DNA of 64,000 nucleotides, taken from contig VGZC01000025.1 of NCBI GenBank assembly GCA_016872725.1, positions 1 to 64,000 of the forward strand, in the 5' to 3' direction. A program made the translations under genes and the position numbers. Positions 10,113 through 13,812 of the stretch are shown in pieces (positions within the stretch are counted from its first letter, which is position 1; every line of letters starts with the position of its first letter). The notes beneath the pieces were generated by a model that had not been told where the DNA came from, searched no databases, and worked only from the letters and a program-made list of their open reading frames with translations. The DNA is from Planctomycetota bacterium. GTDB lineage: Bacteria > Planctomycetota > Planctomycetia > Pirellulales > Pirellulaceae.

Positions 10113-11090
10113 ATGCGCGATCTCCGAGCCGCCGCCGTCCAATTCGAATCGGTGCCATCCGATAAGGACGCGAACCTCGCCCGCATGCGGTCGTTTGTCG
10201 AGCAGGCGGCGGGTCGGAATGTGCGACTGGTCGTCTTCCCGGAATGCTGCGTGACCGGTTACTGGCACCTGCGGAAGCGGACACGTGAAGAACTTGTTGA
10301 GCTTGCCGAGCCGATCCCCGACGGACCAACGGCGCAAACCGTGCTCGGCTGGTCCCGACTCCACGGCATGACGATCGGCGCGGGACTGCTCGAACGGGAC
10401 GGCGACCGCATCTACAACAGCTTTGTCGTCGGAATGGCGGACGGGACGATTCGAACGCACCGGAAGCTGCACGCGTTTGTGAGCCCCCACCTCTCATGCG
10501 GTGATGCGCACACGGTCTTCGATACACCCGACGGATACCGGGCGGCCGTGCTCATCTGCTACGACAACAACCTGGTCGAGAACGCGCGGATCTGCGCGCT
10601 GGCCGGCGCCGAAGTCCTCCTCGCGCCGCATCAGACGGGCGGCTGCGACTCGGGGAGCCCTTGCGCGATGGGCTTGATCGACCCGAAACTCTGGGACGCG
10701 CGCCGCGAGGACCCCGAGTCGATCGAGCGCGCGTTTCGCGGAGACAAGGGCCGAAGTTGGCTCATGCGATGGCTGCCCGCGCGTGCGCACGACAACGGCC
10801 TCTTCCTTGTCTTCGCGAACGGCGTCGGTCGCGACGACAACGAGATCCGAACCGGAAACGCCATGATCCTCGATTGCTACGGCAGGATCCTCGCGGAGAC
10901 GTGGAAAGCGGACGACGACATGGTCGTCGCCGATCTCGACGCCTCCTTACGGCCGCGCTGCACGGGCGTCCGGTGGATCCGGGCCCGAAGGCCCGAGTTG
11001 TACCAACCCCTCACCGAAAGGACAGGCCGGGAACGGGACACGCGGAGTGTTCGGTTCGACCACCTCCCGCCGGACAACCCGCCAAGCTGA
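10113..11090 (+). CDS. Carbon-nitrogen hydrolase (nitrilase superfamily)
   Basis: A 325-residue amidase/nitrilase superfamily enzyme that hydrolyses an amide or nitrile C-N bond through a Cys-Glu-Lys triad. The triad is visible: E44 in VFPECCVTG, K118 in HRKLHAF and C149 in LICYDNN. Length and order of motifs fit the family. There is no signal peptide, so it is cytoplasmic. The region after the nucleophile contains an insertion relative to short family members (about residues 175-220, CDSGSPCAMGLIDPKLW). The substrate is unknown. It probably shares a transcript with the small upstream gene and converges on the thioredoxin-like gene. Confidence 0.88.
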   Translation: MRDLRAAAVQFESVPSDKDANLARMRSFVEQAAGRNVRLVVFPECCVTGYWHLRKRTREELVELAEPIPDGPTAQTVLGWSRLHGMTIGAGLLERDGDRIYNSFVVGMADGTIRTHRKLHAFVSPHLSCGDAHTVFDTPDGYRAAVLICYDNNLVENARICALAGAEVLLAPHQTGGCDSGSPCAMGLIDPKLWDARREDPESIERAFRGDKGRSWLMRWLPARAHDNGLFLVFANGVGRDDNEIRTGNAMILDCYGRILAETWKADDDMVVADLDASLRPRCTGVRWIRARRPELYQPLTERTGRERDTRSVRFDHLPPDNPPS

Positions 11091-11134
11091 CCCCTTCGGG
11101 AATCCGCACCCTCGCGCGTGCCGGCTCGACCCGC

Positions 11135-11734
11135 TCACCCCGGCTCCGCCAGGAGTTCCTCGATCCGCGATCGCATGACGCGCTCGCCGTCCGTCCCGTT
11201 CCATTTCAGCTCGCCATACCACCAATACCGAATGTAACCTCGGCGATCGATGAGATAGACGCTCGGCCAGATACCCGTGCCCCAGGTCTTCCAATTCCCG
11301 CGCTCGTTGTCAACGACGATTGGAAAGTCAAACCGCTCGTCGGCGATCTTCTTCCGCAGCGCGGCAAGATCCCTTTCATGTTCGCCCTCCGGCGTGTGGA
11401 TTCCGATCATCCGCATTCCCCGGTTCCGAAAATCGGCCTGCCAACCCCTGTACCAGGGGTAGTTTCGAATGCAGTTGATTCACCCAAACGTCCAATAGTG
11501 AAGCACAATCACCTCTCCTCGCAAGTCGACCATGCGCAGGGGAGGCGATTGCAACCACTCGCTGGAGGACGCGAATTCAGGCGCCTTGAAAGCGACCCGC
11601 CCGAGCCGCGACGTGTCAAACGACGGACCAATCAAGGCGCCAAGCGTCCGAGTCTGGGAATCGGACAGAACGGCGAGCAACCGGGCGGTTTCACGAGTCC
11701 GAAGATCACGATATTCCTTGCTCGATCTGACCAA
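11135..11734 (-). CDS. Thioredoxin-like protein, probable UxxC selenoprotein
   Basis: One frame runs from TTG 11734 to the stop near 11135 with a single internal TGA at 11482-11480 (codon 85). Either side matches a TlpA/redoxin-type thioredoxin fold: upstream GEVIVLHYWTFG, downstream INCIRNYPWYRGW, then IGIHTPEGEHE and WPSVYLIDRRGYIRYWW. Cysteine homologues read WxFG-C-IN-C here, so the TGA replaces precisely the attacking cysteine. If TGA is read as selenocysteine the product is 199 residues with a U85-x-x-C88 redox site. A GGAGG ribosome site precedes the TTG, and an in-frame stop lies eight codons further upstream. No N-terminal signal peptide is evident. The alternative is a TGC/TGT-to-TGA nonsense mutation or a sequencing error. 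Confidence 0.75.
11444..11482 (-). promoter_or_regulatory. Candidate bacterial SECIS element (with UGA)
   Basis: Starting 20 bases after the in-frame TGA (11482-11480) the transcript can form a perfect 7-bp stem, acccctg paired with caggggt (11460-11454 and 11450-11444), closed by the three-base loop GUA. The loop begins 26 bases after the UGA and its first base is G. These match the usual bacterial SECIS rules (stem-loop shortly after UGA, G in the first two loop positions). A U-U mismatch sits just below the stem. The hairpin lies inside coding sequence, as bacterial SECIS elements do. Confidence 0.65.
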
Positions 11735-11892
11735 GACGCCTCCGCTGTTCGGCGGTCATGATCGTTTCCGATCGACGGTCCGAGTGCCAAGAAAACTCGC
11801 ATTTCGGCGGCGAACGGCTAAGATAGGATTCGACGCGAGACGGAAAGTCGCGGACTTGGCGACCCGGCATTCGAAAAAAGGACCCCTATTCC

Positions 11893-13812
11893 ATGCGCGA
11901 GAATCCCACGGCCCCGGATTGCATTCCCCATTCCCCACGCGCGGCTCAAGTCCGCTCGGCGATTCGGATTCGAATCGCCCTGTTCTGGATCGTCGCCCTG
12001 GCTGTTTTGCCGCTCCGCGCCCAGCCCGCCGCGAATGCCGATCCATTGGTGTCGGGGCTGCGGCCCGTTCTCGAGGCGGCGAGCGGCGCCGAGAGCTACC
12101 GCCTGCGGGGTCGCGTCGATTTCAAGGTCGGCGGAGACCGGCACGTGGTCGAGTGCGACCTTGTGCGCCACGGGGACGAGTCGTTTGATTTGACGATCAC
12201 GCACGCGGACTACGCGGTGAGCCTTCGTCGCCGCGCCGATGCGACGGCGTTCGCTCTACCCAAACACGGCGTGGTCTACCATGGAAAGGGCGACGTTCAC
12301 CAAGTTGATCGGCTAGCGCCGGCCAAGATCCTCGATCGGCTCGTGACGCCGCGCACATCGATCGCGCCGCTCGTGCCGCTCGTCACCGACGCCGAGCCAG
12401 AGACGCTTGCGTTGGCCCTGCGGGCGTTGTTCGGCGCGAAACGCGACGCGGACTCGGCGCGATGGAAGCTCGGCGACAGGATCGCGCTGACGTTTCCGGA
12501 ACCGGGCGCGATCGAGTTGGTATCGGGTGATGCGAGCGTGCGGCTCGCCGCGAGCTCGGACGTTCCCGCGCCCGACGCGGTCGACGCGTGGCCCGGGCTT
12601 CGGCCGATCGAACTGGACCGGTTCGAGCTCGAACGGCACCTCGCGCGCGGCGTGCGCCGCGCCTTGGAAATCCTGGCTCCCGGCCCCACGCTCACGCAAC
12701 CATCGACGGCGCCGCGCCGCGTGGCGCACGGTGAACTGCGATGGATCGACGGCCAGCGCGTGGCCATTCTCGAAGGAACACCCGAGCAGATCGGCCGCGC
12801 GCACGGCGAGCTGCTCCGGGACGAGGCGATCGCGTGCATCGACTCGGTCTTGTACGCGTTCGGCACAGCCCAGACGATCCGATCGGGCAAGTGGTTTCCA
12901 CGCGAGTTGATGGATGCGTACTCCCGATTGAAGTCGCACATCCCCGAGCGTCATGCGATCGAAACGCGCGCGTTGGCGCGGGCGCTGGAGATGGACGAGA
13001 CGCTGGTGGAAGCGGTCAATGTCTTTCCCGAGATGTTCCATTGTTCGGGGTTCGCCCTATTCGGAAAGGCGACGCGCGACGGCAAGCTCTATCACGGCCG
13101 CGTGCTCGACTACATGACGGAAATCGGTCTGCAGGACGCCGCGACGACGTTCATCGTTCGGGTCGACGACCGGATTGCGTTCGCCAACATCGGCTATGCG
13201 GCGTTCATCGGATGCGTGAGCGGCATGAATGCGAAGTCCGTTTCGCTCGGGGAAATGGGCGGGGGCGGCGAGGGCCATTGGGACGGCGTTCCGATGGCGA
13301 CCTTGATGCGGCGCGCGCTCGAGGAATGCGGCACGCTCGACGATGTGATCGCACTCTGGCGCGAGAGTCCGCGAACGTGCGAATACTACTATGTTTTCGC
13401 GGACGGGAAATCGCGGCGCGCGGTCGGCGTGGCCGCCCTGCCCGAATCGATCGAGTTCATCCAGCCCGGCCAATCGCACCCACGGCTCGGAGACGGCATC
13501 GAGGATGCGGTCGTGCTCTCCTCCGGCGATCGGCTGGCCACGTTGCGGGAACGCGTCACGTCGCGCCACGGCGCGTTTGACGTCGAGCTCGGCCAATGGC
13601 TGATGACGCGGCCCGTCGCCATGGCGTCGAACCTTCACAACGTCCTGTTTGTTCCCGAGGACGGCGTACTGTATGTCTCGAATGCGGACCACGCGAAGTG
13701 CGCAGCGGAACGCCCCTACGCGCGGATCGACCTGACGGCCATCTTGAACGAGCGTTCCACGATCGCGTCGAGCGGTGGCGGCAAGGAGTCCGGCGAAACG
13801 ACGGGGCGCTAG
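11893..13812 (+). CDS. Exported C45-family peptidase/acyltransferase-like protein
   Basis: A 639-residue exported protein. A signal-anchor-like segment (IRIALFWIVALAVLPLRAQP, about residues 26-45) is followed by a 230-residue N-terminal domain of unknown type. The C-terminal half (about 275-620) is an Ntn-hydrolase of peptidase family C45, related to acyl-CoA:6-aminopenicillanate acyltransferases and phospholipase-B-like proteins. The candidate nucleophile is C384 in EMFHCSGFALFG, followed by the typical GKLYHGRVLDY. Family members cleave themselves before this Cys and then act on amides. An aagga ribosome site lies about 10 bases upstream of the ATG. Substrate is unknown. Confidence 0.82.
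   Translation: MRENPTAPDCIPHSPRAAQVRSAIRIRIALFWIVALAVLPLRAQPAANADPLVSGLRPVLEAASGAESYRLRGRVDFKVGGDRHVVECDLVRHGDESFDLTITHADYAVSLRRRADATAFALPKHGVVYHGKGDVHQVDRLAPAKILDRLVTPRTSIAPLVPLVTDAEPETLALALRALFGAKRDADSARWKLGDRIALTFPEPGAIELVSGDASVRLAASSDVPAPDAVDAWPGLRPIELDRFELERHLARGVRRALEILAPGPTLTQPSTAPRRVAHGELRWIDGQRVAILEGTPEQIGRAHGELLRDEAIACIDSVLYAFGTAQTIRSGKWFPRELMDAYSRLKSHIPERHAIETRALARALEMDETLVEAVNVFPEMFHCSGFALFGKATRDGKLYHGRVLDYMTEIGLQDAATTFIVRVDDRIAFANIGYAAFIGCVSGMNAKSVSLGEMGGGGEGHWDGVPMATLMRRALEECGTLDDVIALWRESPRTCEYYYVFADGKSRRAVGVAALPESIEFIQPGQSHPRLGDGIEDAVVLSSGDRLATLRERVTSRHGAFDVELGQWLMTRPVAMASNLHNVLFVPEDGVLYVSNADHAKCAAERPYARIDLTAILNERSTIASSGGGKESGETTGR

Follow-up and report, generated by a model that had tools for sequence, protein, structure and literature searches.

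The window, the whole 64,000-nucleotide (64-kb) stretch analyzed here, lies on contig C25 of a 5.24-Mb genome that is assembled in 100 contigs and 95.8% complete. On its minus strand, positions 11734 to 11135 form a single frame of 199 codons with one internal TGA and a terminal TGA. The features of the locus are as follows.

11135 to 11734, minus strand: frame of a thioredoxin-like (TlpA/redoxin-type) domain read through the TGA, 199 residues from TTG 11734 (translation, PF00578, orthologues)
11480 to 11482, minus strand: proposed selenocysteine (Sec) codon, the in-frame TGA at codon 85, first Cys of CxxC (orthologue column comparison)
11444 to 11460, minus strand: bSECIS-type hairpin of 7 Watson-Crick pairs with loop GUA, 26 nt from TGA to loop (pairing, folding, comparison)
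11135 to 11137, minus strand: terminal TGA stop (translation)
11739 to 11743, minus strand: GGAGG, Shine-Dalgarno-like, 4 nt before TTG 11734 (sequence inspection)
11721 to 11777, minus strand: remnant of an N-terminal domain, profile positions 111 to 129, out of frame with the thioredoxin domain (E = 0.06, the best in the six-frame window; 11.9 bits)

Translation of the minus strand confirmed the original prediction of one frame broken once, by a TGA at 11482-11480 that occupies the first Cys position of a CxxC motif (context HYWTFG-TGA-INC). A match to PF00578 (AhpC-TSA) covering residues 50 to 170 (41.3 bits against a gathering cut-off of 26) runs across the TGA, and the predicted TlpA/redoxin-type similarity thus extends to either side of it without a change of frame. 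Under translation table 11 the gene is split into two open reading frames (ORFs) of 84 and 93 amino acids, as had been expected of an ordinary annotation. Motif-only screening of the window was abandoned as a route to TGA candidates: a loose U/C motif filter, combined with a minimum of 24 open codons both before and after the TGA, passed 146 TGA codons, 11482-11480 included, too many to carry meaning. What lifts this TGA above chance is the two-sided homology together with the alignment of the TGA with a catalytic Cys.

We compared the predicted protein with known folds and families. An AlphaFold2 model built from a 20-row alignment has a thioredoxin fold (pLDDT 88), and fold comparison placed DipZ (E = 1.9e-16), SOQ1, and NHLRC2 nearest, followed by ResA and others. 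By sequence, the closest solved proteins were likewise DipZ of M. tuberculosis, SOQ1, and NHLRC2 (E = 1.1e-25, 8.3e-20, and 5.6e-13, respectively). DipZ and SOQ1 hold a Cys at the TGA column, with which the window residue aligns when entered as C; all three are longer chains with other parts than the window protein. ResA and other TlpA-like proteins share the fold and match over the motif at a greater distance (44.4 bits with the NCBIfam ResA model, whose cut-off is 170). The family WAxxUGC_long (NF041054) is, by its name, ResA-like with a U-containing motif, but the window protein scores 17.2 bits against its cut-off of 300 and has the motif UINC rather than UGC. No NCBIfam family was found over its cut-off for the window protein, which also falls under the gathering cut-off of PF08534 (Redoxin; 20.1 versus 26.6 bits); the longer orthologues L026, L023, and L053 pass that cut-off. 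PMC13188914 lists predicted selenoproteins of the UxxC redoxin (PF08534) and Prx-like thiol:disulfide oxidoreductase (PF00578) types, with Sec first in CxxC as proposed here. Unlike those listed proteins, 54 of 60 members of the window's family add an N-terminal domain, which the window copy has lost. Going by what is known of the family, a thiol:disulfide reductase with Sec as the attacking residue would be the natural reading.

To follow the TGA column through relatives, we searched 60 genomes and then 396 (relatives plus order), and added one relative from 31 candidate stretches. The comparison comprised 60 orthologous rows, window included: the best matches of both searches, one extra locus, and chosen stretches that included every TGA-marked row at E ≤ 1.8e-41, which makes the sample nonrandom and enriched for TGA forms. 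A motif and anchor filter passed 61 entries; L075, a second copy in genome G115, was excluded from the tree, from the pair counts, and from the N-terminal-domain counts. L063 was missed by this filter and has TGC at the column. We skipped L070 (the same locus as L079) and did not use L077 (a Cys form with TGA only as its stop) or the distant homologues L047 to L051; TAG marks in L041 and L042 proved to be ordinary stops.

The original prediction had suggested looking for TGA or Cys at this column across relatives, and in the TGA-enriched sample of 60 rows we found 7 TGA (the window, L025, L026, L029, L053, L054, and L057), 52 Cys, and 1 Asn. In the 396-genome search, 119 rows were counted at E ≤ 1.8e-41, of which 10 were TGA-marked; we read all 10. 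In three of them (G075, G391, and G056:C203), the TGA was the terminal stop, leaving an internal TGA in 7 of 119 rows from six genomes, window included. The seventh TGA genome, G035, came from the 60-genome search. The Asn row, L032 (G024:C106), has AAC in place of the Cys or Sec codon together with changes at 10 of 40 near-invariant positions, and it probably lacks the usual redox function.

These rows bear on an alternative account without any link to Sec, in which a Cys codon became TGA through a plain nonsense mutation or a sequencing error. The source is one genome in 100 contigs and TGA is one base away from TGC or TGT, as such an account would have it, but the codon is also TGA in six genomes besides the source, and in five of these the downstream hairpin has a stem of at least 6 pairs. 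On a maximum-likelihood tree of the 60 rows, the TGA state requires at least 5 changes (bootstrap range, 4 to 6; well-supported branches force at least 2), with weak support near the window row. The TGA is therefore not one copied error, and gains or losses of Sec were repeated; the sequences thus point to several exchanges of Sec and Cys within this family.

The TGA state was also compared with the presence of selA, which was over its cut-off in 6 of 7 TGA genomes versus 13 of 53 others (Fisher's exact test, p = 0.003, without correction for kinship). The 53 comparison genomes are those of the 52 non-TGA rows plus G136, whose row had been dropped; the genome of L052 is outside the comparison. 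G115, whose two copies both have TGA and which is listed with 8% contamination, had no selA match at E ≤ 0.001; it has a tRNA-Sec (68.6 bits) that ARAGORN also calls. In G382, listed as 76% complete, selA is present and no tRNA-Sec was over the cut-off.

Downstream of the TGA, the window hairpin falls within the bSECIS model as given in PMC13188914 (stem of 4 to 16, loop of 3 to 9, a G among the first two loop positions, 16 to 37 nt from the UGA, and MFE of −7.5 or below), having a stem of 7, the loop GUA, a distance of 26 nt, and −11.3 kcal/mol. A stem of at least 4 also occurs at 39% of ordinary positions, so these criteria alone are weak. The stability of the hairpin is unexceptional (z = −1.0; 34 of 200 shuffles fold equally well), and a stem of at least 7 at the same place was seen at 2.0% of 34,639 codon positions in the stop-free stretches of at least 350 codons in the window. 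The value of the hairpin as evidence for Sec comes from the difference between TGA rows and the others, not from its stability. Stems of at least 6 pairs occur in 6 of 7 TGA rows versus 0 of 53 others, and the share of cells with the hairpin pair formed is 93.9% (of 49) for the TGA rows versus 40.4% (of 371) for the rest; when the pairs are shifted by one column in non-TGA rows, 41.0% are formed. Non-TGA rows slightly exceed their own shuffles, which were as high in 11 of 500 cases for pairing and in 6 of 500 for covariation. L025 is a TGA row with only 4 contiguous pairs.

Among the TGA rows, one hairpin pair varies on both sides, being C-G in 3 of 7 and U-A in 4 of 7. A single pair with a two-sided change is unremarkable by itself (seen in 441 of 500 shuffles); the observed number of changed cells together with the covariation score was reached in 11 of 500. 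The change links the wobble base of a Pro codon with an Arg or Lys codon, giving CCC with AGG in three TGA rows and CCT with AAG in four. In the four non-TGA rows with the peptide P-W-Y-R, Arg is coded by CGN, and of the six with P-W-Y-K only L035 and L055 combine CCT with AAG, the other four being without this combination. L055 (G134:C29) is a Cys row that forms 5 of the 7 hairpin pairs and encodes the peptide WYKGW, common in TGA forms; it may perhaps represent a recent change from Sec to Cys.

We then examined the source genome for the selenocysteine machinery. The genes on whose presence the original prediction depended, selA, selB, selC, and selD, are all there. SelA (556.9 bits) adjoins SelB (316 bits) on contig C2, and SelD (349.7 bits) lies at C19:20463-21389, all three over curated cut-offs; the best tRNA-Sec locus scores 67.2 bits, also over its cut-off, with the anticodon tca according to ARAGORN. 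The tRNA-Sec model is unspecific, being exceeded at three loci in the source genome and in 5 of 14 control genomes, and the case for a tRNA-Sec therefore lies mainly in the identification of the best locus by ARAGORN. The protein models passed their cut-offs in fewer control genomes (SelA, 1 of 14; SelB, 2 of 14; SelD, 2 of 14). The earlier suggestion that this organism decodes selenocysteine is well supported by these four predicted genes. The SelD gene (C19:20463-21389) holds an in-frame TGA of its own, in the context CAG-U-AGK; Sec-containing forms of SelD are known.

Of 15 AhpC-TSA matches in the genome, 6 have one TGA inside, the window gene included. The five further matches of AhpC/TSA type, each with one TGA, lie at the following positions.

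C54:7279-7650
C55:28558-28914
C38:6827-7132
C9:56745-57107
C6:99691-100083

Their TGA contexts are FTGG-U-TKEC, DW-U-GPC, HW-U-PPC, LM-U-LPC, and LT-U-PPF, which fall into the motif classes UxxC (3), TxxU (1), and UPPF (1). These five genes probably encode selenoproteins, and standard gene calling would break each of them in two. Together with the Sec machinery in the same genome, they count further against a chance nonsense mutation or sequencing error, a reading that we strongly disfavor. Read-through of TGA in several AhpC/TSA-type frames might also suggest its reassignment to another amino acid, such as Trp, in the source genome. However, the window gene itself ends in TGA, the alternatives at the column are Cys (52 rows) and Asn (1 row) rather than Trp, and the five further sites sit in the motifs given above; we consider reassignment extremely improbable. 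Taken together, the orthologues, the hairpin, and the machinery suggest that TGA 11482-11480 has, very probably, been inherited as a Sec codon.

The part of the gene upstream of the thioredoxin domain differs from that of most relatives. An N-terminal domain is present in 54 of 60 rows (leave-one-out profile of at least 30 bits, in an open frame), whereas the window frame scores 1.0 bit; the rows without the domain in an open frame are the window, L024, L045, L079, L080, and L081. At least 240 open codons precede the column in 51 of 60 rows, versus 91 in the window. The whole-protein profile aligns to the window gene only from position 184 onward, and the remnant at 11777-11721 matches positions 111 to 129 in another frame; between the remnant and the thioredoxin domain, some 54 profile positions are absent. 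In a shuffle test of a region large enough to contain the match, 0 of 3,000 shuffles scored as high as this remnant. Apart from it, the N-terminal profile found nothing better than E = 0.78 in the 64-kb window, and on this ground we rejected a location of the domain elsewhere in this stretch. From the profile start, the out-of-frame remnant, and the lack of another match in the window, we conclude that the front of the gene was lost.

Several observations accompany this N-terminal region. In orthologues, the N-terminus resembles a signal peptide by eye, and Pfam matches on the N-terminal part were all below threshold, LTXXQ among them in one of the three proteins tested. L024 (G015:C169) is a Cys orthologue whose linker is interrupted by a TAG ahead of the thioredoxin domain, the N-terminal domain being present beyond it; this TAG may be a nonsense mutation, a sequencing error, or the mark of a pseudogene. 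L080 (G310:C6) is a Cys form whose front is broken by TAA and TAG before the domain. The source genome also encodes a stand-alone protein resembling the missing N-terminal domain (L116, G000:C17:21797-22114); we set it aside as a partner of the window protein, since beyond this resemblance nothing supports joint action.

The original prediction missed the truncation relative to 54 of 60 rows; the extent that it gave, from 11734 to 11135, may nevertheless be real, with translation perhaps starting at TTG 11734 behind the GGAGG at 11743-11739. The thioredoxin domain is without clear decay in its sequence. It scores 274.7 bits against its leave-one-out profile, versus 210.7 to 299.2 in the other rows, and the window differs at 4 of 40 near-invariant columns (V to I, F to Y, T to G, and N to T), with more differences in 4 of 60 rows and an equal number in one.

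The missing front and frame-shifted remnant would be equally compatible with a gene in decay and with a short form. It is possible that the codon is ancestrally Sec and the window copy a recent 5′-truncated pseudogene, its front deleted with a change of frame and no protein now made. The loss of a domain kept by 54 of 60 rows and the 57-base remnant in another frame point this way, as do the broken fronts elsewhere (TAA and TAG in L080, the linker TAG in L024). No promoter-like site of the scanned types was found in 11000-12000, although only 0.2 would be expected there by chance. Against decay stand 199 codons free of stops and frameshifts apart from the TGA, 36 of 40 near-invariant residues, all 7 hairpin pairs, the GGAGG preceding TTG 11734, and the existence elsewhere of a short form with a signal-peptide-like start as judged by eye (L081). 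We regard the pseudogene as the minority case, though a substantial one, and hold that the window copy is probably still a working gene.

The reading that we favor, with a probability of roughly 0.6, is that a Sec codon lies within the gene of a UxxC thioredoxin-like oxidoreductase that lost its front and is still translated in a short form. The original proposal of a probable selenoprotein thus stands as far as the descent of the codon is concerned; it now carries the reservation that the 5′ part is lost and survives as a frame-shifted remnant. In general, SelA, SelB, and SelD serve in the synthesis and insertion of Sec. In the window's genome, SelA would turn serine on tRNA-Sec into selenocysteine with selenophosphate supplied by SelD, and SelB, on meeting the hairpin 26 nt downstream of the UGA, would bring the charged tRNA to the ribosome. 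Sec would then replace the nucleophilic Cys of a thioredoxin-like thiol:disulfide oxidoreductase. The source genome would have lost the front of the gene, the short form being translated perhaps from TTG 11734. We infer Sec insertion, redox activity, short-form translation, and the location of the window product from sequence comparison. The family probably acts outside the cytoplasm, since in most orthologues a signal-peptide-like N-terminus comes first, followed by another domain, which in one case is weakly LTXXQ-like. It is rather doubtful that an exported Sec oxidoreductase was turned into a short cytoplasmic selenoprotein by loss of the front and a new TTG start.

Published work already describes planctomycetes that have Sec machinery and candidate selenoproteins (PMC4807772). 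Among the literature matches listed, no paper treats this subfamily, and the candidate table of PMC4807772 may include it. UxxC thioredoxin-like selenoproteins are, as originally stated, an established type: selenoproteins of the UxxC redoxin and Prx-like kinds appear in PMC9312934 and, as predicted ones, in PMC13188914. The window gene adds to these already known UxxC redoxin-type selenoproteins. Appearing as two short ORFs under table 11, it is easily missed, and because it splits and five other AhpC/TSA-type matches contain a TGA, the redox set of this genome would be undercounted. With at least 5 changes on one 60-row tree, the family is useful for studying Sec/Cys exchange; most of its TGA forms, but no other row, have a hairpin stem of at least 6 pairs.
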